Source: Clostridia bacterium | GTDB lineage: Bacteria > Bacillota > Clostridia > Christensenellales > Borkfalkiaceae | Length of the DNA: 37,297 bases | NCBI GenBank assembly: GCA_017448355.1 | Contig: JAFSLQ010000056.1 | Location: 1 to 37,297, forward strand | Direction: 5' to 3' | Shown: positions 14,273-30,713 of the stretch, piece after piece | How the letters are laid out: each line of letters opens with the position of its first letter | Numbering within the stretch: the first letter of the stretch is position 1 | The notes under the pieces: model-generated | The model's input: the letters and a program-made list of their open reading frames with translations, nothing else | Told to the model about the DNA's origin: nothing | Databases searched by the model: none | Translations under genes and position numbers: made by a program

Positions 14273-14274
14273 AT

Positions 14275-15528: not shown

Positions 15529-15537
15529 TGTTTTCAC

Positions 15538-16188: not shown

Positions 16189-17714
16189 ATATTTACAACC
16201 CCGCCCGCGTGAGCACCGTGACTATCACCGTCTTTATCTGCAAAACGAAAAGAATATAACTTACCGTTTATATTAAAACGCAATTTGAATTTTTTGCCGG
16301 ATAAAGAAGCAATGTCAAAATTCTTAAATATCACCTTCGCATCTGTGGAATCACAAATCAATCTATCCGATACGGCCAACAGTTCTCCATTATCTGTTAA
16401 AATCTCGACACTGGCTTCTCCATCAATATTCACAAACATCTGACATCTGTTTTTAAAAGTTAAATTCCTTGTTAACAATGTCCCTTTACCGCTCACCGAA
16501 ACAAAGCCGTCTCTACGTATTTTTGCAAGTCCGGTAGCCCCGTTTGAATACATACCGTTTTTGAACCATACAAGATTCTTTTTAGTCTCATCGCCCGCAA
16601 ATCCTATATAATATATCCACAATTCGTCCCCGTGAATTATACAAACACCTCCGACCGATTGAATATACCCCCTATCCCATGCTCCTTTATACATCGATGC
16701 TGTTATAATAGATTCGCTATTAGGTCTCGTGAAATGAAATCCGTCTCTACTAAAAATCGGTATCAGTTCAGTTATTTTCGGCACTCCTCGATTTTCACAC
16801 TTTAAATTGTCCGGACCATATAATATCTGAAACATCCCCAGCATTATACTTTCATATCCAACACAGTCTACATTATACAAATCCGGCTGATAATAATCTA
16901 TATAAGGATTAGGCAAATCTTTTTCTGTAGTGTGTAGCCACCTTATATCTTTATTTCCGTCCCACAATTGATCGTTGATAAAATCATCACATTCGTAATA
17001 ACTGCGCGCCCTTCTACCCGGCGTCCATGATTTCCTTATACTGAAAACCCATTTTTTTCTAAACGGATTGTAAAAAATCGTACTTCTATCTTCCAACGGC
17101 GGCGTTGTCTTGAAATTTTCAAAATGAATACCATCTTTTGAAGTCGCAATTAACGCAGGGGTAATCCCGTCTGGATTTCGTAAAAACAATTTATATCTTT
17201 CATTTATTTTCTTGGTATCATAATCGATAACTATTGTCGTCGAATCCGGACGAAAATAATTCAATCCCGAAAAACCTTTTTCTAATTCGTAGCCATCATA
17301 GTCAAGAATGATATTCGTTCCCTTCCTTATATCTAAATGCGGACGTTCCCAATGTATCCCGTCTTTGGAAACAGCATATGCCATGTGCTTTAACCAACTT
17401 GCTTCATACCACATTTTATATATTTGTTCCGTTTCGTCATACCAAACCCCACCCGACTTTGGGCATGCTACCGGACATTCTTCTCTTTCCCAACTCTCCG
17501 TAGGATAAAAAATAGGATTTCCTTCATACTTTTTCGGTTTATGATACTCAAATAACAGTTCCGATTTCTCAATTAGAAAATCGTCAACAAATAACTGTCT
17601 ACCTATACTTACATCAATAACTTTAGGCGGATTTACCAAATACGGTACTTCATCAATATTCTCATTATAAGGAAAACTATCGTTAACCGATATTCCGTTA
17701 TATAATTTTTTCAT
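16185..17714 (-). CDS. GH43/GH32-like five-bladed beta-propeller glycosidase-family protein
   Basis: A 509-residue protein without a signal peptide, the first gene of the glycan operon. Repeated propeller blades show the motifs AVSKDGIHWERP, ATSKDGIHFENF and FSRDGFHFTRP, typical of the GH32/43/62/68/130 superfamily. The N-terminal RQLFVDDFLIE motif marks a subgroup common in Bacillota and Verrucomicrobia that is usually annotated as putative glycosyl hydrolase. I did not identify the complete acid triad of GH43, so whether it hydrolyses a glycoside or acts as a phosphorylase-like or binding protein is open. The C-terminus forms a small beta domain (residues about 410-495). Its stop overlaps the aldolase start. 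Confidence 0.75.
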   Translation of the reverse strand: MKKLYNGISVNDSFPYNENIDEVPYLVNPPKVIDVSIGRQLFVDDFLIEKSELLFEYHKPKKYEGNPIFYPTESWEREECPVACPKSGGVWYDETEQIYKMWYEASWLKHMAYAVSKDGIHWERPHLDIRKGTNIILDYDGYELEKGFSGLNYFRPDSTTIVIDYDTKKINERYKLFLRNPDGITPALIATSKDGIHFENFKTTPPLEDRSTIFYNPFRKKWVFSIRKSWTPGRRARSYYECDDFINDQLWDGNKDIRWLHTTEKDLPNPYIDYYQPDLYNVDCVGYESIMLGMFQILYGPDNLKCENRGVPKITELIPIFSRDGFHFTRPNSESIITASMYKGAWDRGYIQSVGGVCIIHGDELWIYYIGFAGDETKKNLVWFKNGMYSNGATGLAKIRRDGFVSVSGKGTLLTRNLTFKNRCQMFVNIDGEASVEILTDNGELLAVSDRLICDSTDAKVIFKNFDIASLSGKKFKLRFNINGKLYSFRFADKDGDSHGAHAGGVVNI

Positions 17715-18010
17715 TTTTTAGCTAAAACCCCAAAATTAAATTAAAATTGAGTTTATTATTGTTCATATACATTATAGATTACCCATAAACCATATTTCTA
17801 CTTTTATTTTTATATATTTTTTGCATATTATTGGATTTTATTCTCAAATACAAAAATTGAACAATACACAAAAATGCTTAAACTAAAAAAATGTGCTTAT
17901 TTTTGTTTTTTTATAAAAAATAACAAAAATAAGCATAATTTATGGTATAATATAAAAAGAATAAAATGAAAGAAAATTGAAATCAACTTTGATGAGAAAA
18001 GAAGGAGAAT
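17715..18010. promoter_or_regulatory. Divergent intergenic region with a long inverted repeat
   Basis: An AT-rich, non-coding 296 bp between the leftward glycan operon and the rightward AraC regulator. A 14-bp perfect inverted repeat lies at 17894-17907 and 17922-17935 (arm TGCTTATTTTTGTT). A -10-like TATAAT at 17946-17951 serves the AraC gene, and its -35 position falls inside the right arm. On the minus strand a TATAAT at 17771-17776 fits the operon promoter, without a good -35, as expected for an AraC-activated promoter. No ORF was seen. Confidence 0.55.
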
Positions 18011-18013
18011 ATG

Positions 18014-18889
18014 ATGACAATTTTACCCGAAGCAAGGCAATTTTTATTATCAAGATTTACAAAAAATAATGCTTACTTTGACACTGAGAAAAAAACATTG
18101 AATGAGCCATTTCCTTTACATTACCATAACTATTTCGAAATTGAATTAATCTTCAAAGGGCATGGTACTGAATATATAAATCAGCATAAAATTGATATTA
18201 AACCAGGTTTAATGTATTTATTATTCCCTACCGATATTCACGAATACATTATAAACGAAGATGTTCAAATCTATACTATATCTTTCGATTATCCATTGAT
18301 CCCTGAAAACTATTTACCGATTTTTTATAATAATAAGGTTGAAAACTTTATAATGAACCTTACAAAAGATAGATTAAAACTAATGCAAGGGCTATTTGAA
18401 AACATAATCGACGAGTACACAAAAAACGATGAATATTCGACAAGTAATATTCAGCACATTTTAAGCATTATTCTTTCTCACTTCATAAGAAAATTACCAA
18501 ACAAGGAAAAAATAGAAATAAACGACAACAGATTATTATTGGCTTTAAATCACCTACTCGTTCATTTTAACGAAAGCCCAACACTTCAGGAAATAGCCGA
18601 ATTAGTTGGATTCAATCCGTCATATTTTAGTACAATATTTAAGAAATACACACAAAAAAGTTATACCGAATATCTTATTGAACTAAAAATCTTACACGCA
18701 AAAAAATTATTGAAAATCAATAAAATGTCCATTTTGGAAGTAAGTTTATCCAGTGGATTTGAATCAATAAGTAATTTTAATAGATTTTTTAAAAAAATAG
18801 TCGGAATAACGCCAACTCAATACAAAAAGGCGCATAATATAACCAAGCAAACTATTAAAACAATTTCAAAGTCATTAAAGGATTCATAA
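18014..18889 (+). CDS. AraC-family transcriptional regulator
   Basis: About 291 residues. Two adjacent ATGs exist at 18011 and 18014; AAGGAG at 18002-18007 gives a better 6-bp spacing to the second. The N-terminal cupin-like sensor (HYHNYFEIELIFKGHG; KPGLMYLLFPTDIHEY) is followed by two helix-turn-helix units (TLQEIAELVGFNPSYFSTIFKKY; ILEVSLSSGFESISNFNRFFKKI) and the closing ITPTQYKK signature. It is divergently placed to the glycan operon and probably activates it in response to a sugar; it may also control itself through the intergenic inverted repeat. The activating sugar is unknown. Confidence 0.9.
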   Translation: MTILPEARQFLLSRFTKNNAYFDTEKKTLNEPFPLHYHNYFEIELIFKGHGTEYINQHKIDIKPGLMYLLFPTDIHEYIINEDVQIYTISFDYPLIPENYLPIFYNNKVENFIMNLTKDRLKLMQGLFENIIDEYTKNDEYSTSNIQHILSIILSHFIRKLPNKEKIEINDNRLLLALNHLLVHFNESPTLQEIAELVGFNPSYFSTIFKKYTQKSYTEYLIELKILHAKKLLKINKMSILEVSLSSGFESISNFNRFFKKIVGITPTQYKKAHNITKQTIKTISKSLKDS

Positions 18890-18890
18890 G

Positions 18891-18929
18891 AAAATAAAGC
18901 ACATTTTTATACAAAATGTGCTTTATTTT
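18891..18929. terminator. Bidirectional rho-independent terminator
   Basis: A 17-bp stem runs 18891-18907 with 18913-18929 (core AAAGCACATTTT / AAAATGTGCTTT), with a 5-base loop at 18908-18912 and T-rich outer arms on both strands. It sits between convergent genes, the AraC regulator and the FGGY kinase, and probably ends both transcripts. Confidence 0.85.
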
Positions 18930-18945
18930 ATCAAATGGTGAATTA

Positions 18946-20241
18946 TTATTCTAACACTCTTATCGCTGCGCCGACCGCGCCGCTATCTACACCGTAAGTT
19001 ACTTCTACGGGCTTATTTATCGTATAACATATTATATCTACCCATATTTTACTTTGTGACGGTCCTCCCGCCATCTTTACGGAATTAAAATCTATTCCGA
19101 GCGTTTGTAAAAAATCGAGTTTTTCCTTTAACAGATTTGCAGCACCTTCCATAACCGCGCGGGCGATATTTTCTTTTTTATATGCCGAAAAGTCTTTTTC
19201 CGCATCGGTTAAAGGATTTATTTTTAATCCGCCAGCCCCGCGCTCGGCTTTTTCCGCATATTCGTTAAATAACTTTATCTTGTCGGTCTTTGAAATATTG
19301 TTTTCTATAATTTTATCTATGTTTTTAGATATTTGCGCGACGGAAGACATAGCCCCCCACAAGTCTTTTTCTTTACTTAAAAACGTATCGCATAAAAGTC
19401 CGTTTTCTATAAGTTTTTTCCTATCGTGATACGGAAAAAACAGTACCCAACTAGTTCCACAGGAAAGTAAAAGTTCACTTTCGTTTACGACATTATTCGC
19501 TATCGCTCCGCTAGGATGGTCGAAACTGCCTAAAAACACCTTGCAATTCTTATCTATGCCGTATTTTTTTGAAAACGTTTCGGTAATTTTTCCAAGCAAA
19601 TCTCCGCTTTCGTAAACTTTCGGCAATTTATCTTCTGTTAAATCCAGTGCGTCAAGATAGGGTTTATGCCACTTGCCCGTTTCTTGTTCCAGAAGGTAAA
19701 AAGGCACAGCGGTAGATCTGTCTATACCCCATTTACCCGTCATTTTATATAACAGATATTCGGTGGACATACAAATCTTGCCGCAACTTTCAAGTATTTC
19801 GGGTTCGTGAATTTTAACGTGCGCAAGATGAGCGAGCGGAAAAGTTCCAAAATAACTCCAACCTGAAACATATGCCGTACATTTTTTATCTATTATGCCG
19901 TAAACTTTTTCACTCTCTTCTACAAATGGCGCGTTAGTCCACGAATACACATTAAGAACAGAGTTTCCGTTTCTATCACAAATTACCGTATTTCCGCTTG
20001 CCGACGCCATCGCTATCCCGCTTATTTTACCGCTCACTTCTGCGGCAAGGTCGCTTATGACCACGAAAACCGTTTCGGCATAATCATCAGCGGAAAATCC
20101 GAGATATTTTGCGCCGCCTTTTAGACTGCAAGTTTTAATTTCAAAAGGTGCGGAACAACTTTTTATTACATTTTCTCCGTCGAACAGTACACCCTTCACT
20201 GACGATGTACCGAGATCAAGACCTATTGAATATTTTTTCAT
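18946..20241 (-). CDS. FGGY-family carbohydrate kinase
   Basis: A 431-residue FGGY sugar kinase, shorter than xylulokinase or rhamnulokinase (about 480-520). The phosphate-binding start IGLDLGTSSVKGVLFDG is intact. The C-terminal half carries LFLGSFDHPSGAIANN-like core residues (GSFDHPSGAIANN) and the ATP-binding VKMAGGPSQSKIW plus GVDSGAVGAA. It would phosphorylate a ketose or polyol made by the adjacent AraA-like isomerase. Start and upstream stop overlap as TAATG, so synthesis is coupled. It is the last gene of the DeoR-headed transcript, before the shared terminator. The substrate is unknown; the short length and isomerase partner do not match a standard arabinose operon. Confidence 0.88.
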   Translation of the reverse strand: MKKYSIGLDLGTSSVKGVLFDGENVIKSCSAPFEIKTCSLKGGAKYLGFSADDYAETVFVVISDLAAEVSGKISGIAMASASGNTVICDRNGNSVLNVYSWTNAPFVEESEKVYGIIDKKCTAYVSGWSYFGTFPLAHLAHVKIHEPEILESCGKICMSTEYLLYKMTGKWGIDRSTAVPFYLLEQETGKWHKPYLDALDLTEDKLPKVYESGDLLGKITETFSKKYGIDKNCKVFLGSFDHPSGAIANNVVNESELLLSCGTSWVLFFPYHDRKKLIENGLLCDTFLSKEKDLWGAMSSVAQISKNIDKIIENNISKTDKIKLFNEYAEKAERGAGGLKINPLTDAEKDFSAYKKENIARAVMEGAANLLKEKLDFLQTLGIDFNSVKMAGGPSQSKIWVDIICYTINKPVEVTYGVDSGAVGAAIRVLE

Positions 20242-21623
20242 TAAATCTTTACTACCTTTAAGTTTAAGAGTTCACCGAAATATTCAAGTGCTTTAATATC
20301 GACGTCATAAACTATAAAACTGTGATGCGTTGCACCATTTTCGCTCAATTTCTCCAAAAAATCAGGCACGGGCACAGGCGGAACGAACCAACCGCGCATA
20401 CTGTCGTCAAAATCGTGCGTATCGACATTTATCATTTCTATATCACTCAAAAGCAACTTAAACTCTTCACCCTTGTCCTTAAACACGTTGCAGAAAACCG
20501 CTTGCCCACTCTTAAACTCTGCAAGACCTTTATAACAAAACTCCGCGTCGGTATAAGAAAAACCAACTTCGGTCAAAACAGGTTTACTTTTTGCGACGGC
20601 ATAATTCATTTCGCCCATATGGCTTATAAAAAGCCTGTTTTCTTTCCAGTCCGGGCAAAAAATTTCAACAAATGAAAAATCTTTGAAAACTTTTGCGACA
20701 GCACCGACGAAAGACGCCGTAAGTGTGTCACCTTCGCCCGCATACCCAACGCCGTTCGCCATTTCTTTACAGCACTCTATAAACGGCATATTCCCGAGAT
20801 TGCTTTTCGTTATATCCAAAAAGTTCACGGTAAACGCGTCGAGATTTTTCTCTTTTATCGCTTTTCTGACAGCAAGACAGGATTTTATAGATGTTTTAAT
20901 GTTTTCTTCGTTTATATCTCCGCAAATATTAAATTCTGCGTTATAGTTTATTCTCTCTTCCGTAATTTCTTTCTCTGAAACGCTATCTAACGCAGTTTTC
21001 ATTTCTTTGTCGCGGAAATGCACGAGTTCTATTCCGAACGCATCTTTAACTTCCTTATCAGTTACGAGAAAATCCCCCATACCCTTAAAAGAAGTACCAA
21101 ATACTCCCGTTCTACTACCATAAAGTGATTTTGCCGCGACTGCCGCTCTTACACAATCAGCCGCTCTTTTAATAACTTTACCGTCCTTAATGTGTCCCGC
21201 GCATATCGCATATTTTTTACCGCGACGTTTTAAAAGGTTACACATATCCATTACGCCGTGTATACCGTGATTATACATCAAGGGACTTTCGGAATATTCT
21301 TTGCCGTAACCGTATCCTTCGGTACTGTCTAAAACCACTATCGGCAGTTTTGTGTTCACAAGCGCGTCAATGCTTTCTAACGACGGCGAATATGCCAGGT
21401 GCAATGTCACTATTACATCAACACCAGCCGTTTCAAAATCTTTGACCGCTTTGTCAAACTCGCTTTTTATACGGCACATCGGTGCTTTTATAACCGATAG
21501 TCCGCTATTTTCAAACTCTTCCGCCACTCTATCGTAAAACTTTATAAGTCCGTCTTTTTTAACATTTACATCATCATAAAGTTTTATATATAAAGGCAAT
21601 AATCCTATTTTGATTTTTTTCAT
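20241..21623 (-). CDS. AraA/FucI-superfamily sugar isomerase
   Basis: A 460-residue aldose-ketose isomerase-like protein, near the 470-500 of L-arabinose isomerase. Landmarks include VDVIVTLHLAYSPS (substrate-domain loop), GVGYAGEGDTLTAS, which matches the QGYGFAGEGDW region of AraA including the metal-binding glutamate, LFISHMGEMN, corresponding to the GSHMLEV histidine segment, and the C-terminal H433-H434. The Mn-dependent isomerisation residues therefore seem present in order. The N-terminal part diverges strongly from true AraA, so a different aldose is likely. The next gene, an FGGY kinase, starts inside its stop codon, pointing to sequential isomerisation and phosphorylation. The family is well supported and the substrate unknown. 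Confidence 0.82.
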   Translation of the reverse strand: MKKIKIGLLPLYIKLYDDVNVKKDGLIKFYDRVAEEFENSGLSVIKAPMCRIKSEFDKAVKDFETAGVDVIVTLHLAYSPSLESIDALVNTKLPIVVLDSTEGYGYGKEYSESPLMYNHGIHGVMDMCNLLKRRGKKYAICAGHIKDGKVIKRAADCVRAAVAAKSLYGSRTGVFGTSFKGMGDFLVTDKEVKDAFGIELVHFRDKEMKTALDSVSEKEITEERINYNAEFNICGDINEENIKTSIKSCLAVRKAIKEKNLDAFTVNFLDITKSNLGNMPFIECCKEMANGVGYAGEGDTLTASFVGAVAKVFKDFSFVEIFCPDWKENRLFISHMGEMNYAVAKSKPVLTEVGFSYTDAEFCYKGLAEFKSGQAVFCNVFKDKGEEFKLLLSDIEMINVDTHDFDDSMRGWFVPPVPVPDFLEKLSENGATHHSFIVYDVDIKALEYFGELLNLKVVKI

Positions 21624-21631
21624 AAAACGCC

Positions 21632-22261
21632 TTATTTATCTCTTCTCGTTTGTTGTAACGTATAGTGAACGTCCACCGCCTTTTCTTCGTCGGTATACTT
21701 TCTCCACGTATCGATGACTTTGCCGCCGTTATACTTACGGTCGTTTACGTCGTCGGTCGTTCCCATTACCGTTACGTTTATCTGTCTGTGTCTCGCTCTC
21801 ACCTGATCCCAGTCAACGAAGTATATATGCGCAAATTCCCCGCCGTCTAATACGCCGTCTTTAATGGTCATTGCTTCGCTTCTTCCGAAGAATACAGAAC
21901 GAAGGTGTCCGTCGGTATTAAGACTTGTCCAGTCACCCGGTTCGTCTACGTGTCTGCCGAACTGCGTGTGTATAGGACCGGGGTGCATATACGCGTTATT
22001 CTCCGAATAGTCGGGAACTAGTTTCTGCATTATCTTTAATATATCGTGCTGTAAGTATTCTAAATCGTAGATATCAAGGTCGTGCGAACACTCCTGTATC
22101 ATTACCGAACAAGTCGTGTGGTGCGACGCGATAGTAACAGTCCCGTTCTTTATCCCCGACTCTTTTACTATGTCGATCACTTCCTTACTTACGTCGTGAA
22201 AGGTCGGTCTCCAACCCTTCGATTGCACTTCCAGTTCCTTCTGAAATACTTTGAATTCCAT
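21632..22261 (-). CDS. YjbQ/UPF0047-family protein, long form
   Basis: A 209-residue member of the YjbQ (UPF0047) family, which usually has about 130-140 residues; this one has a roughly 40-residue C-terminal extension and an insertion before HPGP. The core motifs are ASHHTTCSVMIQECSHD, HPGPIHTQFG, DGHLRSVFFGRS and IYFVDWDQVRARHRQINV. The canonical HTTASL/NE pattern is replaced by HTTCSV/QE, and the strand that reads WQGIFL in YjbQ reads IYFVDWD. YjbQ proteins have a weak thiamine-phosphate-synthase activity in vitro, but their real role is not settled. A second paralogue is at 25619-26113 on the other side of the divergent promoter. It may act on a phosphorylated sugar intermediate; this is inference. 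Confidence 0.85.
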   Translation of the reverse strand: MEFKVFQKELEVQSKGWRPTFHDVSKEVIDIVKESGIKNGTVTIASHHTTCSVMIQECSHDLDIYDLEYLQHDILKIMQKLVPDYSENNAYMHPGPIHTQFGRHVDEPGDWTSLNTDGHLRSVFFGRSEAMTIKDGVLDGGEFAHIYFVDWDQVRARHRQINVTVMGTTDDVNDRKYNGGKVIDTWRKYTDEEKAVDVHYTLQQTRRDK

Positions 22262-22288
22262 TATTGTTGTCTCCTTTTTTCTTTTATT

Positions 22289-22885
22289 TTATTTCTTATT
22301 TAATCTTTCGCCGACTGCACCGCCGGGATGAATTACCGCAAACTGTTCGTTTTTAAAGCCCGTTTCTTCAATAAGTGCCGTCTGCAACGTATGAAATATT
22401 ATGCATAGTGCCGTTGTCGAAGTCGTCCCTTGTGAATTGTATTTATCCGTTTCCCTGTTAACGTATTGCTTTAATACGACGTCAGCGCCAGTAGCCAACG
22501 GACTTTCAAGATTTTCAGTTACCGTAATGACTTTTATGCCTTTCTTCTTGCATATATCCAAAATAGGCAAAAGTTCTTTTGTCTTACCGCCACGGGAAGC
22601 AAACACCATCACGTCGTCCTTTTGTAAAAACCCCGTTGCACCATGAACCGCTTCCGCAGGAGATATAAACCGAGCGGGCTTTTCTATACAGCAAAGTAGG
22701 TGCGCGAAATGTTGGCAGATTATCCCTGAATGACCACACCCGCAAGTGCCTATCCTTTCCGCATTTTTAAGTAAGTTCACCGCAATAGAAAACATTTCTT
22801 CGTCAAAATACTTTTCCATTTCCGCGATGCACTCGGATTCTATTTTATATACCGCTTTCGCTTGTTCTAAACTTTTTGTTTTCAT
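22289..22885 (-). CDS. SIS-domain phosphosugar isomerase
   Basis: A 198-residue single SIS domain protein. The phosphosugar-binding elements are visible: GTCGCGHSGIICQHFAHLL near residues 46-64, the serine/threonine loop FASRGGKTKELLPIL near 94-108, and the terminal HPGGAVGERL that supplies the base seen in KdsD/GutQ-type isomerases. It lacks the CBS domains of KdsD. The family interconverts phosphorylated aldoses and ketoses or binds them. Sited between the amidohydrolase and YjbQ genes, it probably acts on the phosphosugar produced in this pathway. Which isomer pair it handles is unknown. Confidence 0.87.
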   Translation of the reverse strand: MKTKSLEQAKAVYKIESECIAEMEKYFDEEMFSIAVNLLKNAERIGTCGCGHSGIICQHFAHLLCCIEKPARFISPAEAVHGATGFLQKDDVMVFASRGGKTKELLPILDICKKKGIKVITVTENLESPLATGADVVLKQYVNRETDKYNSQGTTSTTALCIIFHTLQTALIEETGFKNEQFAVIHPGGAVGERLNKK

Positions 22886-22886
22886 C

Positions 22887-23909
22887 TTAAAATTTTATTC
22901 CGTAAATTCGCGCGGCGTTATTACACATTATATCCGCAATATTGTTTTTATTAAGTCCGAGTTTTTCCGCTGTCTTTTTGAAACCGCGTATTATCTCATA
23001 AGTAAAGTTGGTTATTTCTTTTTCATCCGTTTCTCTCATATGTGCAGCGTTAGTTAAATCCCCATATAATCCTCGCGGAACTACGTTAACATAATTCCCG
23101 TTTTCACATATACGATACATTTTCATCTTCGCTATCGGCATATCAGTTCCGAAAAGAACTCTTTTAGTGCCTACCGCCTCTATACACTTTTCAGTTGCAA
23201 GCGGTAAAGTATTAGCCGAAAAATCGAACATCATATTTTCTGTGTGTTTAAGCGTTTCAAATGCGTCGCCTATATCTTCGGGTGAATACGCTCTGCCTAT
23301 ATGCGCAACTATCAGTTTAACGTTCGGATATTTCTGTTCTATTTCCATAAGTTGCTTTATATTCGTCGAATTTTTAAGTCTGTCGGGTTTGCTTATATGC
23401 AAAACAACTTTCCACCCGTATTTATCCGCAACTTTTAAATGCTTTTCAGGTAAAAAGTCGAATATATCAGCATCTGCACCGTTAACGCCAGTTTTACAAT
23501 TATCCAAATATGGTTTTAATCCCTGAAATCCGCCTTTTATAACCTCTTCTTCCAAGAATTCGGGTGTCATATCGTAATCAGTAAGGAACAAAGTCGGATA
23601 ATTTTTTTCCCTTCCAGCTTTTGAAACATATAAATTCCCTTTATCTAAGTACTGTGCAGGCCATCCAAATATAACCGGCACAACCTTTTTATCCGGAAAC
23701 ATATTAAAATAAGTTTGTTCCAAATCTTCAATCGAACATTGTCCGCCAACTCTATCCGGCCAATAATCCGGATTTAAAACTCTGTTTTTTCTATCGTCTT
23801 CCGTTCTCCAAACATGTGTGTGAGAATCAACTATATTATCGGGTAAAAAATCTTTTAATTCTTCTTCGTAAACCTTTTTGTCGTATTCCGACATTTTATA
23901 TCCGAACAT
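22887..23909 (-). CDS. Amidohydrolase-2 family metal-dependent hydrolase or decarboxylase
   Basis: About 340 residues. The start is placed at ATG 23909 (MFGYKMSEYD) because AAGGGGGG lies four bases upstream; the frame opens farther up at 23942, with no ribosome site. It has the COG2159 TIM-barrel pattern: IVDSHTHVWR near the start (metal-binding HxH), VVLHISKPD, LIVAHIGRAYSPED with the third metal histidine, and RVLFGTDMPIAKM containing the catalytic aspartate. Relatives hydrolyse lactones or decarboxylate ring acids. It begins the enzyme part of the leftward operon, right after the DeoR gene. A lactonase step in a sugar-acid route is possible but only inferred. Confidence 0.85.
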   Translation of the reverse strand: MFGYKMSEYDKKVYEEELKDFLPDNIVDSHTHVWRTEDDRKNRVLNPDYWPDRVGGQCSIEDLEQTYFNMFPDKKVVPVIFGWPAQYLDKGNLYVSKAGREKNYPTLFLTDYDMTPEFLEEEVIKGGFQGLKPYLDNCKTGVNGADADIFDFLPEKHLKVADKYGWKVVLHISKPDRLKNSTNIKQLMEIEQKYPNVKLIVAHIGRAYSPEDIGDAFETLKHTENMMFDFSANTLPLATEKCIEAVGTKRVLFGTDMPIAKMKMYRICENGNYVNVVPRGLYGDLTNAAHMRETDEKEITNFTYEIIRGFKKTAEKLGLNKNNIADIMCNNAARIYGIKF

Positions 23910-23975
23910 AACGCCCCCCTTTGTAAAATTATATAACCACAATCAAAATATTGTCAAGTATTTTGAGCGATTTAA

Positions 23976-24758
23976 TCAATTATCTGCAATTCTTATGTTT
24001 ATACCGTTTCGCAAAAATTCATTTTGCTGTTCTTTTTTCAATTTTACGTCCGAAACCACCAAAGACACTTTATCTCCTTTCGCAAACCCAACAAGCGCAG
24101 CCTTGCCGAACTTGTGCGAATCCATAAGGATAATCGAGTTGTCGGAATTTTCAATTGCACACTCGCAGATTCTTGCGGATTCAAAGTCTGTCGTGGAAAA
24201 ACCTATGCTGCTATGATAACCGTCAGTTCCTAAAATACACTTGTTAAAATGGCAATCCTTTATCGCCTTTTCCGCCATATATCCGCAGAAATCTTTTCTG
24301 TACGGCCGAAAAGTCCCCCCTATAAGATTTACCGTCGCACAACCGTTTAGAATATTTATTATCATATACGAATTAGTAAAAACGGTTATGTTTTTTAGCG
24401 TTTTTTGCCTTAAAGCATCCGCCAAAGCCATACTGAACAAGCACACGGTAGTTCCCGAATCCAAAAACAACGTTTCATCGTCAGATATAAGCGACACCGT
24501 TTCTTTTGCTATCGCTTTCTTTTCTTTAACGTACAATTCTTTGCTCGCTTCATAACTGTAAAAACTGTAAGTGCTGTCGGGCAGACTTATTTTTCCATGC
24601 GATCTGATGCCGTACCCCTTTTCTTCCATACGTGTAAAAAGTCTTCTCGCAGTCGCCGCCGAAATTTCCATTTTTTCCATTGCATCTTGCAAAGTTATGC
24701 TGCCGCTCAGTTGCAATTCTTTAAGTAAAACCGTTTCTTGCACTATCGTCTTTTTCAT
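23976..24758 (-). CDS. DeoR-family transcriptional repressor
   Basis: A 260-residue DeoR regulator of usual length. The N-terminal winged helix-turn-helix reads ITLQDAMEKMEISAATARRLF, and the C-terminal DeoRC sensor domain shows LFLDSGTTVCLF (family SGTT motif), TNSYMIINIL, NLIGGTFRPYRKDFCG and LGTDGYHSSIGFSTTD. Such regulators sense phosphorylated sugar intermediates and act mostly as repressors. It is the first gene of the leftward operon, with GAGGAAGAG as ribosome site, and lies beside two AATGAGCG repeats that are its likely operator. It probably represses its own operon and perhaps the rightward pair of genes. Confidence 0.92.
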   Translation of the reverse strand: MKKTIVQETVLLKELQLSGSITLQDAMEKMEISAATARRLFTRMEEKGYGIRSHGKISLPDSTYSFYSYEASKELYVKEKKAIAKETVSLISDDETLFLDSGTTVCLFSMALADALRQKTLKNITVFTNSYMIINILNGCATVNLIGGTFRPYRKDFCGYMAEKAIKDCHFNKCILGTDGYHSSIGFSTTDFESARICECAIENSDNSIILMDSHKFGKAALVGFAKGDKVSLVVSDVKLKKEQQNEFLRNGINIRIADN

Positions 24759-24788
24759 TTTTTGCTCTTCCTCATATATAATGTTTAC

Positions 24789-24817
24789 AGTTTATCATAA
24801 AACGCTCATTTTGTCAA
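24789..24817 (-). promoter_or_regulatory. Leftward sigma-A promoter of the DeoR-headed operon
   Basis: On the minus strand TTGACA (24812-24817) and TAAACT (24789-24794) are separated by exactly 17 bp. This is a near-consensus promoter about 30 bp upstream of the DeoR start. Confidence 0.8.
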
Positions 24818-24831
24818 ATAATTCGCTCATT
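24803..24831. promoter_or_regulatory. Probable DeoR operator: two AATGAGCG direct repeats
   Basis: The motif CGCTCATT (plus strand) occurs at 24803-24810 and 24824-24831, 21 bp apart, i.e. two DNA turns. The leftward -35 box lies between them, so a bound repressor would cover the promoter. The spacing fits DeoR-family tandem operators. The assignment to this regulator is inferred from position. Confidence 0.65.
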
Positions 24832-24855
24832 ATTTTATAATTTTATTCATTATCT

Positions 24856-24884
24856 TTGACAAATCGTTTACGATTTTTTATGAT
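24856..24884 (+). promoter_or_regulatory. Rightward sigma-A promoter
   Basis: TTGACA (24856-24861), a 17-bp spacer and TATGAT (24879-24884) lead into the TIM-like gene, whose ATG is 30 bp downstream of the -10. The operator repeats lie just upstream of this promoter, so control by the same regulator is possible. Confidence 0.8.
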
Positions 24885-24914
24885 TTAAAAAAATAAAATA
24901 CACAAGGAACTATT

Positions 24915-25616
24915 ATGAAAAAAATAAGAACGCCTTTTTTTGAAATAGGCACTAAAAACTACGTTTACGGCGACGAAGTGTTGCGGCTCGCTATCGCCGC
25001 AGATAAATTTGCGGAAAAATACGATATAGACGTATTATTTACTACTCCTTACGCAGACATTAGAAGAGTAGCGGAAAACACAAAAAATTTAATTATAATC
25101 GCGCCGTATATGGATACTTTGCGTCCAGGTCGCGGTATGGCGGACGTTCTGCCCGAAAGCTTAAAAGCCGCGGGCGCGCACGGTGTTGTTGTAAACCATT
25201 GCGAAAAACCTATGTCCCTTCCGCAAATAAAAGAAACCATTAAGCGCGCAAGAGAGTTAGATTTTATTGTTTTTGCTTGTGCTGACACAACCGAAGAAGC
25301 GGAAGCACTTGCTCACCTTCACCCCGATATTATTAACCCCGAACCATCGGAACTTATAGGCGGAAACGGCGGAAAAGTAAGCGATTTAAGTTTTGTTAAA
25401 AGAACGATAGATGCAATAAAAAAAATTGATCCGTCGATTTTTGTTGAACAAGCGGCGGGAATCACCACGGGAAAACAGGTTTACGATTTTATTATGGCGG
25501 GTAGTGAAGGCGCAGGTGCGGCTTCGGGCATAATAAATGCAAAAGACAGAATTGCGACAATGGAAGAAATGATTGCCGCAACAAAACAAGCCGCTATCGA
25601 CCTTAAAAGGAGTTAA
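24915..25616 (+). CDS. Triosephosphate-isomerase-like phosphosugar isomerase
   Basis: A 233-residue TIM-barrel protein of the TpiA family, in the size range of the short archaeal type. The electrophilic His is H95 with E97 in VVNHCEKP, and the catalytic base is E143 in NPEPSELIGG. The phosphate loop GSEGAGAASG is present. The usual N-x-K at the start is G-T-K (residues 12-14), so the lysine is kept but the asparagine is lost. Family relatives outside glycolysis isomerise tetrulose phosphates, for example L-erythrulose-1-phosphate. Its location in a sugar cluster, not in a glycolytic operon, supports a specialised substrate. The gene starts after AAGGAAC and is followed after 2 bp by a YjbQ gene. 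Confidence 0.82.
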   Translation: MKKIRTPFFEIGTKNYVYGDEVLRLAIAADKFAEKYDIDVLFTTPYADIRRVAENTKNLIIIAPYMDTLRPGRGMADVLPESLKAAGAHGVVVNHCEKPMSLPQIKETIKRARELDFIVFACADTTEEAEALAHLHPDIINPEPSELIGGNGGKVSDLSFVKRTIDAIKKIDPSIFVEQAAGITTGKQVYDFIMAGSEGAGAASGIINAKDRIATMEEMIAATKQAAIDLKRS

Positions 25617-25618
25617 TT

Positions 25619-26113
25619 ATGATTTATAAAAACAAAATTCAAGTTCAATCGGAACATAAAGAAATAACTTTTCATAACGTTACGGATAAAGTTAAAGAGA
25701 CGGTTGAAAAATCGGGAATTAAAAACGGAATTGTAGTTGTTTATTCCCATCACACAACTTGCTCTGTTATAACGCAAGAGTGCGCTTTTGATATGTCTAT
25801 GACGGGAAGAGAAACGTTGCAACAGGATTTAGTGGACGTATTTGAAAAAATTTGCCCTTCCAGCACGAGAGAAGGTATTTACCTTCACCCCGGTCCTAAA
25901 GCACTTAAATTTGCCGAAGAACACGGCGAAGACGCACGCGGTTGTCACAACACCGAAGCGCACCTTATATCTTCCATCATAGGCAGAAGTTTAACCGCTG
26001 TAATTGACGAAGGTATTATCGATCTTGGCGACTACGGATTTATTTACTTTATAGACTGGGACAAAACCCGCGGAAGACAAAGAACCGTTCAAATAATGGT
26101 CATAGGCGAATAA
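25619..26113 (+). CDS. YjbQ/UPF0047-family protein, short form
   Basis: A 164-residue YjbQ paralogue with the motifs YSHHTTCSVITQECAFD, HPGPKALKFAEEHG, TEAHLISSIIGRS and IYFIDWDKTRGRQRTVQIMV. It shares the unusual HTTCSV/QEC and DWD features with the 209-residue copy on the opposite strand, so the two form a distinct subfamily rather than a recent identical duplication. It lacks the long C-terminal tail. The strong AAAGGAG ribosome site overlaps the end of the upstream gene, so the two are coupled. The two paralogues may work as alternative subunits or act on two related intermediates; this is speculation. Confidence 0.86.
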   Translation: MIYKNKIQVQSEHKEITFHNVTDKVKETVEKSGIKNGIVVVYSHHTTCSVITQECAFDMSMTGRETLQQDLVDVFEKICPSSTREGIYLHPGPKALKFAEEHGEDARGCHNTEAHLISSIIGRSLTAVIDEGIIDLGDYGFIYFIDWDKTRGRQRTVQIMVIGE

Positions 26114-26283
26114 ACAATCTAAATAATTGATATAAAGATTTACTCTATAAATTAGTTACATAATAAAAACCGATATTTCAATAAAACTAAAAAAACAGAA
26201 GAGTTTTCCGATTTATTTATTCATCATACTCCGCGCGGAGCAACCGCTTCATGTGGCATAAATGGTGATAATTATAACTCAAC

Positions 26284-26310
26284 AGCGGGCGCATAAAAAA
26301 TGCGCCCGCT
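26284..26310. terminator. GC-rich hairpin, probable terminator
   Basis: An 11-bp perfect stem (AGCGGGCGCAT at 26284-26294 with 26300-26310) and an AAAAA loop lie between the convergent YjbQ and Fic-downstream genes. No run of T follows immediately, so it is a weaker canonical terminator. The rest of 26114-26325 shows no gene. Confidence 0.6.
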
Positions 26311-26325
26311 CAATATGTATGTCTT

Positions 26326-26481
26326 TTATTTATCTATCTTTATTTTTTCCGTCAAAGTTTTTACTTCAAAATCATATTGCTCTTTTGTAAGAAGCTTACG
26401 CTCGTAAAAAAGTTTTAATGTCTCCAACTCTTTTTTGAGCAACCACGTATTATCTAACTTTTTATCTTCAATTTCTGCCAT
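26326..26481 (-). CDS. Small hypothetical protein, SHOCT-like helical tail
   Basis: A 51-codon frame from ATG 26481 to TAA 26326, directly downstream of the Fic gene. The product is charged (MAEIEDKKLDNTW) and contains LKLFYERKLLTKEQYDFEVKTL, a short helical pattern like SHOCT domains (ERGLLTEEEY). An AGG lies about 11 bp upstream of the start. It may be co-transcribed with Fic. Its small size keeps confidence moderate; the function is unknown. Confidence 0.5.
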   Translation of the reverse strand: MAEIEDKKLDNTWLLKKELETLKLFYERKLLTKEQYDFEVKTLTEKIKIDK

Positions 26482-26515
26482 AGTAAAAATAACCTGCCCA
26501 AATTATTTATTCCCC

Positions 26516-27502
26516 TTATATTTTATAATACATTTGACTTTTGCTTGTTGGCTTATTCGGAATAGTCATACCAATTAAGCCTGCTTCTAAAGCCGGATTG
26601 AGATAATTTTTTCTAAACGCAATTCTAGATTTTAATCCTAATCTTTCCATAATCATTTGTGCTGATTGCGGATATGCTTCCATAACTTGCATTAGTTTAT
26701 TTATCTGAATATTTATGTGATTATAATGTTCTCTTGAATCATTAACAATATCTTTTATTGCTTTATTTATTACGTCAAGCATAAAGAGAATAAAGGCATT
26801 TGATTTACCTTCGATAGTCGCTTTTGCTATTGCATTGTAATATTCTTCTTGATTATTTTTAATAACACTCTCTATCGGAATATACTTGAATATCGGTTTC
26901 CAACTCGCAAGCAATGCAGTTTGCCAAAGTCTGCCCATTCTTCCGTTACCATCTCTGAAAGGATGAATAAACTCAAATTCGTAATGAAACACACTGGACT
27001 TTATAAGCATTTGAATGTTTGTATTTTTAACCCAATCAAATAATTGGTTAATCAATTCATTTACCATTTGAACCGGTGGCGCTGTATGAACAACATTTCC
27101 ATTTTCATCAAATACGCCAACGTTTCCTGAACGCAAGTTGCCGGCTTCTTCGACTAAATCCCTCATCATAATCCCGTGTATTTTTAATAAATCTTTCAAG
27201 TTGTAAGGATTTACCGAATCTAATTCTTTGTATGCTTCAAAAGCGTTTTTAACTGCAACAATATCTTCTCTCGGACCTAAAACTTTTTTTCCATCAATAA
27301 TATCCGTTACTTGTTCTATGGATAATGTGTTATTTTCGATCGCCAAAGAAGAATGAATACTTTTTATCCTCGATATTTTTCTAAGCCTTGGTAACTTTTC
27401 TAATTCGTTAACATTTGAAAGTTTACCGAGATTTTCCATAATCTCAGTTGATATTTCAAACATTTCATTTGTTATTTCAAAAGGCGGAATATATTTATCC
27501 AT
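26516..27502 (-). CDS. Fic-family AMP-transferase-like protein
   Basis: A Fic protein of about 328 residues. The start is at ATG 27502 (MDKYIPPFEI) after GGAGAT; the frame also extends to 27532. The catalytic motif HPFRDGNGRMGR (from H180) matches HPFx(D/E)GNGRxxR fully. Upstream, SLAIEN (S52 to N57) fits the inhibitory (S/T)xxxE(G/N) helix, so this is a class II Fic enzyme that restrains itself without an antitoxin. The C-terminal 100 residues contain a winged-helix-like region (QVMEAYPQSAQMIMERLG). Fic enzymes typically move AMP onto a target protein; the target here is not evident. It lies beside a tRNA integration scar, suggesting acquisition by transfer. Confidence 0.9.
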   Translation of the reverse strand: MDKYIPPFEITNEMFEISTEIMENLGKLSNVNELEKLPRLRKISRIKSIHSSLAIENNTLSIEQVTDIIDGKKVLGPREDIVAVKNAFEAYKELDSVNPYNLKDLLKIHGIMMRDLVEEAGNLRSGNVGVFDENGNVVHTAPPVQMVNELINQLFDWVKNTNIQMLIKSSVFHYEFEFIHPFRDGNGRMGRLWQTALLASWKPIFKYIPIESVIKNNQEEYYNAIAKATIEGKSNAFILFMLDVINKAIKDIVNDSREHYNHINIQINKLMQVMEAYPQSAQMIMERLGLKSRIAFRKNYLNPALEAGLIGMTIPNKPTSKSQMYYKI

Positions 27503-27789
27503 TTTATATCTCCGATCAAAAACTAAAAACATTATAACACACTAATAACATAAATGCAAGTTCTTATATGTTATTCACATCATTTTTCTATATATTATTA
27601 AACGTCGATTTTCTTTAAAAAGATTAAAATTTGTATAAAAATTTTTGCTCGCATTTCTGCAAGAAAAATGCAGCAAAAATGCAAAAAACGTGCACAGCAC
27701 AAAACAACAGTCTTTAAAAATGGCGGTTTTTTGCTCCAAAAAGCCCGTTTTTTGCTATTTTTTAAATAAAAACGCTTCAATTTCAACCG
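27503..27789. other. Non-coding stretch left of the tRNA block
   Basis: AT-rich and without a believable gene. It contains one GCTCGCAT box at 27647-27654, the same octamer found four times beside the integrase, and several GCAAAAA-like tracts. It ends abruptly at the tRNA-Phe fragment, so it may be the end of an inserted element. Confidence 0.5.
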
Positions 27790-27834
27790 CTGAAAATCCC
27801 TGTGTCGGTGGTTCGACTCCGCCCCGAGGCACCA
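27790..27834 (+). pseudogene. 3' half of tRNA-Phe(GAA), probable attachment-site scar
   Basis: These 45 bp match the tRNA-Phe pattern from the anticodon loop (CTGAAAA) through the variable region, T-arm (stem GGTGG / CCGCC, loop TTCGACT), acceptor strand CCGAGGC and ACCA. The expected 5' acceptor strand GCCTCGG and the D-arm are missing; upstream bases do not pair. This is the appearance of an att core left at the far end of an element integrated into a tRNA gene. It lies 19 bp before tRNA-Thr. Confidence 0.75.
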
Positions 27835-27853
27835 AAAGTTTTTTCGCACCTTT

Positions 27854-27929
27854 GCTGGTGTAGCTCAACTGGCAGAGCAGCTGATTTGTAATCAGCAGGT
27901 TGCGGGTTCGATTCCAGTCACCAGCTCCA
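27854..27929 (+). tRNA. tRNA-Thr(TGT)
   Basis: A 76-nt cloverleaf with encoded CCA. The acceptor arm GCTGGTG pairs with CACCAGC, the anticodon arm CTGAT TTGTAAT-type loop carries TGT, and the T-arm contains GGTTCGATTCC. It is complete and in the same orientation as the next tRNA. Confidence 0.95.
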
Positions 27930-27956
27930 ATCGTTTCCCCTATAAACTTAATATAC

Positions 27957-28040
<84 letters not shown>

Positions 28041-28041
<1 letters not shown>

Positions 28042-28073
28042 AAAAATCGTTAGTATTTTACTAACGATTTTTT
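28041..28073 (+). terminator. Rho-independent terminator of the tRNA operon
   Basis: A 15-bp perfect stem (28041-28055 with 28059-28073, core AATCGTTAGTA) has a 3-base loop and ends in six T residues. It starts at the last base of tRNA-Tyr CCA. Confidence 0.92.
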
Positions 28074-28405
28074 GTATACGCTTTTTCCTTTTGTTTTTAC
28101 TTTTTGTCTAACATCTTCTCCTGCACCATCGTTTTGTTTTAACAATATAATCTTTTTATTTTTAGTTACAACGAAAAATTATTAAGCAATATTCCTCTGT
28201 TAAAGTTCTATCGCTTACCCTGAATTTGTTCCTGAAACGAACTCAAAATCACAACCGACTATAACGCTTTTGCATCAAGTTTTATATCGTTTTTTGCATT
28301 GATTTTTAGCACTTAACTATGCGTAAAATGTCTGAAAAATCCCTAAAACCCGTTTTTGCTCGCATTTTGCTCGCATTTCGCTCGCATTCTGCTCGCATCC
28401 GCCTG
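28074..28405. other. Element-end region before the integrase
   Basis: No coding frame was supported. Apart from the tandem GCTCGCAT boxes at 28355-28398 it is AT-rich, with no clear promoter. It lies where the left end and att site of the right-hand element are expected. Confidence 0.5.
28355..28398. repeat. Four tandem 11-bp direct repeats (GCTCGCAT boxes)
   Basis: GCTCGCAT occurs at 28358, 28369, 28380 and 28391, each box 11 bp from the next, in the form YYYGCTCGCAT. The one-turn phasing and position just outside the integrase stop suggest arm-type binding sites for the recombinase. A fifth box stands at 27647-27654. Confidence 0.8.
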
Positions 28406-29680
28406 TTAATTACTTAATTTTTGGGCTAACTGTTTTGCAATCTTTTGTGCAGTATCAAGGTGTTTCGTGTTCTCAAAGTGGGCGTATATTTTTTGTGTTG
28501 TAAGCACGTTTGAATGTCCTAACCACTCTTTTATGTCTTCCAGATTTACCCCTTCGTGCCTTTGCAATGCGGCGCAACTATGCCTTAAATCGTGAAATCT
28601 GATATACGGCATTTTTATCTTTTTCAAAGCTTTCTCGAATCTTCCCGTTATATAATCCGGTCTCATTATGTCGCCGTTTTCCAGAACACAAACGTAATCT
28701 TCGTATTCCCTGTTATAACAATTCCCGAAAAAAACTTTATTTTCTTCTATCGTCTTTTTCCATTCTTTTAGCCGTTCTTCAATGTTAGAAAACAATGGCA
28801 GCGTTCTGATACTGCTGTTCGTTTTGCCCTTATCTCTTTTTACAACCGAATACTTCCCATCAACTATGCTCATCACGATCGTATGTTTTATTTTTACGGT
28901 TTTAGAATAAAAATCTATGTTTGACCATTTTAACCCAACCACTTCACTTCTTCTTAATCCGTAATACCCTGCTATCAAGACAGGGATTTCCAAAACGTTC
29001 CCTTTCAATTTCTCAAAAAGAAGTTTTAATTGTTCCGCATTATAATAATTACTGATAAACCTATCGACTTTCGGTTTTTCAACAAAGTCCGCAACATTTA
29101 CGGAAACAAGTCTTTGTTTTCTTGCATATTCAAGGCATTTCCTTATGTTTGCATGATACCGAATTACCGTATTAGCCTTTACACGTTGCAATTCTTCGTT
29201 ATAATACTCTTGTATATCATTTTCGGTCAAATCTTGTAGAGTTATTCCTCGTTTATTAAAATACGGTGCTATATTTCTCGTAATTTTGTTTTTATAGCCC
29301 ATATAAGTATTCGGCTCAATGGTGTGTTTTACAATTTCAAGCCACTCGGTAAGATAATCTCCAAACAAAACTTTATCGCTATCTGAATTTGTTTTAGTTT
29401 CCGAAATCGTCCTTTCTTGAATTTTTTTAGGACTTGTTATTGCAGGCTTGTCAGCCAACATATCAGGATCAAATATATTTAGTTCTTTCTTTTTAAATCT
29501 GTTTAATAATTCAGGCTTAAAATTGTTAACGGCAATATCCAAAAGTTTTAATGCTTCTTTTTTATTTCCACGTATTGTCAAATTAGTATTAAACCAAGGC
29601 TCGCATCTTTTACCGTTTTCGTCTTTATATGTAAATATTATGTAATAATAGCCGTGCTTTTCCTGAATTCTCGCCGTCAT
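28406..29680 (-). CDS. int: Tyrosine recombinase (ICE integrase)
   Basis: A 424-residue tyrosine integrase. The N-terminal arm-binding part resembles the AP2-like domain (GYYYIIFTYKDENGKR), the core-binding SAM-like domain covers about 105-200, and the catalytic residues are R243 (GYYGLRRSE), H363 and R366 (FHDLRH), H389 (WLGHSN) and Y399 (KIYAHF). All catalytic positions are intact. It would integrate and, with the excisionase, excise the element that runs to the right. It is transcribed toward the tRNA block, with its end about 365 bp from tRNA-Tyr, the usual layout for an element using a tRNA 3' end as target. The excisionase-like gene starts 13 bp upstream. Confidence 0.95.
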   Translation of the reverse strand: MTARIQEKHGYYYIIFTYKDENGKRCEPWFNTNLTIRGNKKEALKLLDIAVNNFKPELLNRFKKKELNIFDPDMLADKPAITSPKKIQERTISETKTNSDSDKVLFGDYLTEWLEIVKHTIEPNTYMGYKNKITRNIAPYFNKRGITLQDLTENDIQEYYNEELQRVKANTVIRYHANIRKCLEYARKQRLVSVNVADFVEKPKVDRFISNYYNAEQLKLLFEKLKGNVLEIPVLIAGYYGLRRSEVVGLKWSNIDFYSKTVKIKHTIVMSIVDGKYSVVKRDKGKTNSSIRTLPLFSNIEERLKEWKKTIEENKVFFGNCYNREYEDYVCVLENGDIMRPDYITGRFEKALKKIKMPYIRFHDLRHSCAALQRHEGVNLEDIKEWLGHSNVLTTQKIYAHFENTKHLDTAQKIAKQLAQKLSN

Positions 29681-29693
29681 AATTTATTCCCCT

Positions 29694-29909: not shown

Positions 29910-29913
29910 AAAA

Positions 29914-30138: not shown

Positions 30139-30151
30139 TACCTTTACTCCT

Positions 30152-30289: not shown

Positions 30290-30300
30290 AATCTCTCCTT

Positions 30301-30663: not shown

Positions 30664-30686
30664 AAGCAACCTCCCTTTTGCCTTCT

Positions 30687-30702: not shown

Positions 30703-30713
30703 ATTGTAACATT

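Follow-up and report, generated by a model that had tools for sequence, protein, structure and literature searches.

An isomerase-rich sugar-phosphate gene cluster in a Clostridia bacterium that links an archaeal-type TIM-like isomerase to variant YjbQ proteins

How might a sugar-catabolic gene cluster that encodes a kinase and several isomerases deliver its product to central metabolism if it carries no aldolase? This question is raised by a stretch of DNA of 37,297 nucleotides from a Clostridia bacterium (GenBank assembly GCA_017448355.1, contig JAFSLQ010000056.1), here called the window, in which eight genes fill positions 18946–26113. A preliminary description made from the sequence alone had assigned these genes to the DeoR, Amidohydro_2, SIS, YjbQ, AraA-like, FGGY, TIM-like and YjbQ families. 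A check of the open reading frames (ORFs) bore out every coordinate and strand, and searches with Pfam and NCBIfam models agreed with the families.

18946–20241, minus strand: KIN, FGGY carbohydrate kinase (Pfam FGGY_N 101.7 bits, FGGY_C 45.7 bits)
20241–21623, minus strand: ARA, AraA-like aldose-ketose isomerase (AraA_central 48.2 bits and Arabinose_Iso_C, both over cut-off)
21632–22261, minus strand: YJ1, long YjbQ/UPF0047 paralogue of 209 amino acids with a C-terminal extension (PF01894, 86.2 bits)
22289–22885, minus strand: SIS-domain phosphosugar isomerase (PF01380, 69.6 bits)
22887–23909, minus strand: AHY, Amidohydro_2 metal-dependent hydrolase (PF04909, 63.1 bits)
23976–24758, minus strand: DEO, DeoR-family repressor (PF00455 (DeoRC) 126.4 bits, PF08220 32.0 bits)
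24915–25616, plus strand: TIM, archaeal-type TIM-like isomerase (NF003302, 155.7 bits, cut-off 132)
25619–26113, plus strand: YJ2, short YjbQ/UPF0047 paralogue of 164 amino acids, partner of TIM (PF01894, 89.4 bits)

The lack of an aldolase and a transporter that had been remarked on holds within this interval. No class II aldolase (FBA) match occurs at window positions 17901–26600 or among the eight genes, and a KDPG/KHG-aldolase-like gene at 15538–16188 belongs to a neighbouring cluster outside the interval. Except for YjbQ, through the hypothetical equivalog TIGR00149, no window protein reaches an NCBIfam equivalog cut-off, and thus enzyme specificity is not readable from family names. The answer that we favour, at a probability of roughly 0.4, is that the cluster serves a DeoR-controlled sugar catabolism that would move the carbonyl of a sugar phosphate from carbon to carbon rather than cleave the molecule. 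Around this proposal stand features established by sequence comparison, namely the gene set and its recurrence, the TIM–YjbQ pair, the SIS–YjbQ link, two YjbQ clades and a conserved repeat.

Pairing of the TIM-like isomerase with variant YjbQ

The window TIM scores above the cut-off of the archaeal-type subfamily model, falls short of the equivalog for true TIM (TIGR00419, 66.0 versus 130.6) and, aligned with 1hg3, carries K, H and E at what we take to be the TIM catalytic positions. Another TIM-family match in the same genome, on a second contig (C10), scores 49.1 bits. Across 246 genomes of the class, archaeal-type TIM over the cut-off was found at 39 places in 33 genomes, and PF01894, the YjbQ family, in 117 genomes. 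All 33 TIM-bearing genomes have PF01894, and 30 of them have an SIS match (E ≤ 1e-15).

YjbQ genes were divided into variant and canonical types at a PF01894 score of 110 bits, with no row between 105 and 122 and with one 29.6-bit fragment (G255) dropped. A variant YjbQ lies within 3 kb of the TIM-like gene at 36 of the 39 places; at the three exceptions YjbQ is either 10.9 kb away (G277) or on another contig, with SIS adjoining TIM (G393 and G207:C16). At the same distance limit in the 33 genomes, no canonical YjbQ is near TIM (0 of 20) or near SIS (0 of 20), 48 of 52 variant YjbQ genes are near one or the other, and 27 of 35 SIS matches are near a variant YjbQ. A survey with window proteins as queries gave a similar picture: when 299 genomes were drawn evenly from the phylum, TIM-like proteins (E ≤ 1e-25) occurred in 8 and YJ2-like proteins (E ≤ 1e-15) in the identical 8, which include the genome of the window, represent 6 genera and all have a TIM–YjbQ gap of less than 100 bp. 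Because these genomes are related, co-occurrence is given as counts and without a formal probability. As judged from gene position, archaeal-type TIM and variant YjbQ form a near-obligate pair, and SIS is found mainly in company with the longer YjbQ (YJ1).

Two YjbQ paralogues distinct from canonical YjbQ

Both window copies are clear family members by PF01894 (86.2 and 89.4 bits for YJ1 and YJ2, cut-off 27) and by TIGR00149 (70.1 and 76.9 bits, cut-off 67.75), and they conform to the UPF0047 fold. The motifs HTTAG[IV]..NE and WQG of canonical YjbQ are replaced in them by HTTCSV/QE and by YGF or FAH. The earlier observation of HTTCSV/QEC in both copies was correct, but the canonical genes sampled mostly have HTTAG[IV]/NE where HTTASL/NE had been given. 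The DWD motif said to stand in for WQG aligns with canonical EFD, and the WQG columns hold YGF in the short copy and FAH in the long copy. The variants differ from canonical YjbQ/UPF0047 by a Cys after HTT, a Gln preceding Glu, an inserted HPGP...H loop and an Asp for Glu near the C terminus, as well as by forming a separate clade and pairing with TIM or SIS.

A YjbQ tree, which had been proposed as a check for separate clades in the same loci, was computed from 82 of 191 retained sequences (a random draw within groups, one fragment dropped). It resolves two well-supported clades, both apart from canonical YjbQ, with support of 100/100 for the YJ1 clade, although a program warning raises a possible long-branch effect where YJ1 joins seven distant variants. 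In each of the two alignments made (40 and 46 rows), residues H45, D70, N111, H115, D148 and R151 are common to the canonical and variant types, and H90 is invariant in the 40-row alignment. YJ1 is 98.6% identical in amino acids and 90.4% identical in nucleotides to a copy elsewhere in its own genome (contig C44), and its G+C content of 45.7% is the maximum of the cluster, the other seven genes having 36–43%. Copies that differ by 10% in DNA and by less than 2% in protein, together with the highest G+C content, suggest that YJ1 is under strong constraint. YjbQ is given as a family of unknown function in the accessible text of a 2021 review, and a literature search of abstract openings and passages, with thin coverage of subscription journals, found no sugar role for it.

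Recurrence and modular make-up of the cluster

A profile built from a YjbQ alignment found 399 places in genome contigs, of which the best 80, the nearest relatives of one query, were retained and mapped with hidden Markov models (HMMs) built from the same loci. In 75 of these 80 loci TIM and YJ2 share a strand, with TIM immediately upstream, and in four others (L047, L049, L072 and L113) TIM is 0.75–1.5 kb upstream; the stretch covered around L074 shows no TIM. Of the 80 loci, 38 have a second YjbQ, 35 have SIS and 32 have both (within 1.2 kb of each other in 29), and KIN, ARA, AHY, TIM, YJ2, SIS and YJ1 are all together in 15, typically in the order SIS-YJ1-TIM-YJ2-ARA-KIN-AHY. The co-occurrence check proposed for the families has thus been made across genomes: the set recurs elsewhere, and the reading of it as a sugar-catabolic set survives.

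The core characteristic of the window's genus is DeoR-AHY-ARA-KIN // TIM-YJ2. SIS and YJ1 are absent from seven same-genus loci with that core (L023–L029) and lie between AHY and ARA in the window, and contig C44 carries a second SIS–YjbQ pair whose SIS is 91% identical in amino acids to the window copy. From this absence and this close copy, the window can be seen to join two modules. The C44 locus (L040) also encodes an FGGY kinase, a YgjV-like membrane protein, a second TIM, NagA-like and NagB-like proteins, and creatininase and M24-type proteins, and suggests an amino-sugar front end feeding the same isomerases.

Neighbourhoods of ARA relatives in other genomes (17 loci, L023–L039) include TIM and YjbQ in nine cases (L023–L029, L037 and L038). 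L034 has YjbQ but not TIM, and neither gene is present in the remaining seven, two of these contigs being 5 and 11 kb long. These results count against eight genes bound tightly into one unit. The AraA-like/FGGY pair is found without TIM, and TIM–YjbQ without that front end, so by these gene maps the front end is not obligate. The sugar-catabolic set as first described stands as to its isomerase-kinase front end adjoining SIS and TIM-like isomerases, and is to be loosened as to the bond between them. A compact module form was seen in L037 and L038 (genomes G192 and G172), where a kinase and a remote relative of ARA (25% identity) are separated by about 4–6 kb from a DeoR-SIS-YJ1-TIM-YJ2 row.

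Partners of TIM and YjbQ in other lineages

Annotations, with Pfam searches on selected genes, place TIM and YjbQ in several plasmid clusters: SDR-PF01261-TIM-YjbQ-FGGY in Shinella, phosphotransferase system (PTS)-class II aldolase-TIM-YjbQ in E. faecium and L. paracasei, and sugar-binding regulator-aldolase-TIM-YjbQ in E. raffinosus. Other plasmid loci read PTS-YjbQ-Rpe-HxlB (E. faecium) and PTS-YjbQ-SIS-Rpe-HxlB (L. paracasei). Two loci of one genus (L227 and L228, genomes G445 and G581) have the operon TIM-YjbQ-HxlB-Rpe-DeoR, and in L227 both HxlB (207.6 versus a cut-off of 160) and Rpe (230.8 versus 212.6) exceed their cut-offs.

A class II aldolase lies within 6 kb of a variant YjbQ in 12 of 112 loci. 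These 112 (80+7+18+7) were brought together for this comparison and again mapped with HMMs made from those loci, and the count leaves out 4 of 20 loci, three with a low-scoring, canonical-type YjbQ (L197–L199) and one in which YjbQ was missed by the HMM (L202). SIS, HxlB, Rpe and FGGY are absent from 9 of the 12; the other three are L112 (a partial gene at a contig edge), L231 (where an adjacent operon gives a 45-bit SIS-domain match) and L201. Conversely, SIS, HxlB, Rpe or FGGY occurs without an aldolase in 85 of the 112 loci, and neither is present in 15. The 80 loci being close relatives, most of the weight of this contrast is carried by the other 32, chosen by the analyst. In L198 and L199, the YjbQ that scores low against the variant HMM adjoins amidohydrolase-like and kinase-like ORFs (named by eye from ORF starts), hinting that other YjbQ types are also found in sugar operons.

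The same loci bear on the idea that YjbQ supplies the missing carbon-carbon lyase activity (as an aldolase), or is an enzyme of the thiamine-phosphate-synthase type. The interval has no aldolase, YjbQ has conserved His, Asp and Arg residues, and the NCBIfam name of the family is secondary thiamine-phosphate synthase. Against a lyase, YjbQ stays beside TIM even in the 12 loci above with a class II aldolase close by, and the title of Morett et al. 2008 terms the thiamine activity low and secondary. We regard this idea as very improbable.

A DXR-II-like oxidoreductase (PF21135) accompanies aldolase-TIM-YjbQ in L200, L229 and L233 (by Pfam) and L232 (by similarity). The PTS is of glucitol type in L229 and of galactitol type in L230, and L200 also has FSA and transketolase. 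Speculatively, the four DXR-II-like loci might serve a branched-polyol route, for example from 2-C-methylerythritol, with a walk of the carbonyl ending at an aldolase substrate.

Identity of the remaining enzymes

The window SIS is closest to KpsF/KdsD-type models and is also HxlB-like, but its matches to KpsF/GutQ arabinose-5-phosphate isomerase (TIGR00393, 116.8 versus 203.7) and to HxlB 6-phospho-3-hexuloisomerase (TIGR03127, 50.6 versus 160) are below cut-off. Its nearest solved chain is 3fxa, and it retains in alignment the residues that we take to be catalytic. ARA is far below the L-arabinose isomerase model (NF002795, 103.5 versus 622) and does not reach AraA_N (17.9 versus 24), and it keeps residues at positions that are presumably those of the AraA metal site. 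A match to sulfoquinovose isomerase was set aside as too weak (23 bits versus 700). The best equivalog match of KIN is XylB (176.3 versus 380.25), below cut-off like all others.

In AHY, residues D28, H30, H32, K132, H171, H203 and D256 are invariant in 33 aligned sequences. A search of solved structures with AHY found a single weak hit, and the top PDB match of its structure model (pLDDT 93.1) is 4i6k, a probable 2-pyrone-4,6-dicarboxylate hydrolase (TM 0.58), a fold match that names no substrate.

A proposed walk of the carbonyl group

If the phosphate-bearing carbon is numbered 1, the route that we propose would run as follows. AHY and the AraA-like isomerase would convert a precursor to a ketose, which KIN would phosphorylate to a ketose-1-phosphate with its carbonyl at position 2. 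The TIM-like enzyme would shift the carbonyl between positions 2 and 3, variant YjbQ between 3 and 4, and SIS between 4 and 5, in the manner of HxlB and KdsD. A phosphate first carried on C1 would thereby finish at C5 or C6, in a ketose phosphate able to enter the pentose-phosphate or fructose-6-phosphate pool, with no need of an aldolase. In aldolase-bearing lineages the direction would be inward, ending at a ketose-1-phosphate open to cleavage. Three kinds of cluster could be covered in this way: those that combine SIS/HxlB and Rpe with a kinase or PTS would walk outward, those with an aldolase inward, and those lacking SIS would act on short sugars. The operon TIM-YjbQ-HxlB-Rpe of L227 would be a gap-free 2-3-4-5 walk to hexulose-6-phosphate.

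In textbook reactions TIM moves a carbonyl between positions 2 and 3, EryH acts likewise on tetrulose phosphate, and HxlB and enzymes of the KdsD/RpiB type move it between 4 and 5. Passage from a ketose-1-phosphate to a hexulose-6-phosphate requires a 3-4 step between them, and the companion of TIM is YjbQ; for this reason the 3-4 shift is assigned to YjbQ. Variant YjbQ would then be a new class of ketose-phosphate isomerase and, with TIM and SIS/HxlB, part of a general reversible walk that leads outward without an aldolase or inward to feed class II aldolases, a claim we put forward tentatively and with somewhat less confidence than the route as a whole. The YjbQ step had been left undefined in the preliminary description; its pairing with TIM, and with HxlB/Rpe or class II aldolase elsewhere, suggests that it acts on the TIM product or at an adjacent step. 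The model also predicts that KIN phosphorylates C1, and it accounts for the missing aldolase.

Several observations weigh against this proposal. The shared gene order of the 80 loci, as nearest relatives of a single query, partly reflects ancestry. XylB, the best match of KIN, presumably acts on C5. With pentoses, SIS/HxlB alone could perform the 3-4 step and leave YjbQ without a task, and the two YjbQ types of many loci are neither needed nor explained by a walk. Nor does a walk explain the TIM-less YjbQ-Rpe-HxlB loci, two plasmid loci with no TIM within 10 kb; the 14.5-kb contig of a same-genus locus (L034) likewise carries a variant YjbQ but lacks TIM. L201, with kinase, Rpe and aldolase together, is a real exception to the aldolase contrast, and the fructose-type PTS beside L227 and L228 is convergent and outside the operon. 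Finally, H90 is less than 90% conserved in the 46-row YjbQ alignment, which includes plasmid variants.

The pairing evidence can also be read in another way, in which YjbQ is a helper, such as a sugar-phosphate mutarotase or 3-ulose epimerase, and gives the neighbouring TIM-like and SIS isomerases their substrate in the form or configuration they need, while the isomerases alone shift the carbonyl. Small mutarotases are frequent in sugar operons (RbsD, FucU and NanQ), one YjbQ type for each isomerase type (YJ2 with TIM, YJ1 with SIS) fits such a role, and a DUF4432 gene follows YJ2 in several loci. However, SIS-free aldolase clusters hold nothing else for a 3-4 shift, if one is needed there, and to our knowledge mutarotases of free sugars are not usually so strictly bound to one enzyme. 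A helper role is rather unlikely, if worth keeping in mind beside the carbonyl walk.

Should the walk be real, it would be a sugar route that swaps the end of the sugar that bears the phosphate, and the YjbQ reaction would be a new enzyme function in a widespread family whose structure has been solved repeatedly (nine entries). The tie of variant YjbQ to a TIM-like enzyme, with SIS/HxlB, Rpe or class II aldolase, yields a short substrate list and allows a direct assay. The module is recurrent in gut Clostridia, many record titles naming herbivore gut, and is also present on Enterococcus, Lacticaseibacillus and Shinella plasmids.

A conserved repeat and predicted transcription units

The eight genes had been described as sharing a single divergent promoter region with operator-like repeats. 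DEO and TIM-YJ2 do diverge from positions 24759–24914, a gap with back-to-back sigma-70-like promoters and a CGCTCA direct repeat, but the five leftward enzyme genes have a predicted promoter of their own.

23928–23957, minus strand: promoter of the AHY-SIS-YJ1-ARA-KIN unit, TTGACA-18-TATAAT (12/12 match to the sigma-70 consensus)
23964–23969, minus strand: predicted operator half-site (TGAGCG on the plus strand) upstream of the AHY-unit promoter (by conservation)
24789–24817, minus strand: predicted leftward DEO promoter, TTGACA-17-TAAACT (10/12 match), overlapping the recurring repeat
24803–24829, no strand: probable operator of DeoR, direct repeat CGCTCA-N15-CGCTCA (single copy in the genome, recurring in related loci)
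24856–24884, plus strand: predicted rightward TIM-YJ2 promoter, TTGACA-17-TATGAT (11/12 match)

The operator-like repeat proved real. CGCTCA-N15-CGCTCA has a single occurrence in the 1.94 Mb genome, none in a reversed (backwards) control and none in 100 shuffles of the window. DeoR and TIM are head to head in 13 of the 80 loci, and 12 of these 13 have the repeat (L041, L043–L048, L050–L053 and L055, the exception being L088). TGAGCG in the DeoR-AHY gap is kept in 11 of 12 loci examined, including the window, and is degenerate in L045.

Promoter matches are common by chance in AT-rich DNA (7 found versus 6.3 expected), and their weight therefore rests on conservation; the rightward TIM-YJ2 promoter is seen again in most of the 13 aligned DeoR/TIM spacers. 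The −10 element of the AHY-unit promoter falls inside a TTG-started ORF, so the true start of AHY is probably the ATG at 23909. Three units, DeoR, AHY-SIS-YJ1-ARA-KIN and TIM-YJ2, are probably under the control of one repressor.

Relation to known systems and flanking DNA

The cluster first described is confirmed and is wider in distribution than the preliminary description could tell, and isomerase-rich sugar-phosphate catabolism is of a known kind. In the accessible text on Brucella (PMC11508834, PMC5992420), EryC, the TIM-like EryH and EryI isomerise a tetrulose phosphate to erythrose-4-phosphate, a precedent for an isomerase row. The EryA-EryB-EryC-EryH-EryI system resembles the window in its early kinase, its isomerase row with a TIM-like member and its end in the pentose-phosphate pool. 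The window instead has an AraA-type isomerase for the dehydrogenase, SIS for RpiB and a TIM of archaeal type, with two YjbQ proteins and an amidohydrolase in addition; the interval has no PF01261 or RpiB gene, and neither the EryB dehydrogenase, EryC (PF01261) nor EryI (RpiB) is found among the eight genes.

A tetrose-phosphate route of this sort, with TIM as EryH, SIS or YjbQ as EryI, and conversion to D-erythrose-4-phosphate of erythrulose-1-phosphate made by the front end, would have in those papers an exact precedent for a TIM-like enzyme paired with an isomerase. The Shinella row of SDR, PF01261, TIM, YjbQ and FGGY and the FSA and transketolase of L200 also agree with it. The window, however, has an AraA-type isomerase, for which an aldotetrose would be an improbable substrate, and no polyol dehydrogenase among the eight genes, and HxlB/Rpe partners elsewhere indicate C5 or C6 sugars. 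For the window, a tetrose route is unlikely.

The L227/L228 operon shares the TIM–YjbQ pair, an SIS-fold isomerase and DeoR with the window, but has Rpe and a true HxlB (L227), and AraA-like/FGGY genes were not found nearby. The class II aldolase-TIM-YjbQ clusters of Enterococcus and Lacticaseibacillus plasmids and of seven genomes (G301, G255, G515, G647, G706, G619 and G661) have the same pair, no AraA-like/FGGY genes found nearby, SIS only as the weak match beside L231, and in some cases a PTS or DXR-II-like gene; the window differs from such aldolase-type ketose-phosphate pathways in having no class II aldolase in its cluster. It resembles the araBAD operon in its adjoining AraA-like isomerase and FGGY kinase, whereas AraD is missing from the interval and TIM, SIS and YjbQ stand in for the 4-epimerase. 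A standard araBAD operon was rejected given the sub-threshold AraA score and this missing AraD. The three Aldolase_II domain matches of the genome are in frames of 430 amino acids (two domains) and 349 amino acids, sizes that we take to be unlike that of AraD.

To the left, a leftward cluster at 3453–17714 encodes DUF4838, GH20-like, acetyltransferase, Gfo/Idh oxidoreductase and KDPG/KHG aldolase proteins, with several large ORFs that are Pfam-negative at cut-off, and is followed by an AraC-type regulator at 18011–18889. The right flank (26516–36094) carries genes for a Fic-domain protein (26516–27532), a phage-type integrase (28406–29680) and a reverse-transcriptase protein (34223–36094), together with a 968-amino-acid ORF lacking a Pfam match, and thus places mobile DNA near the cluster.

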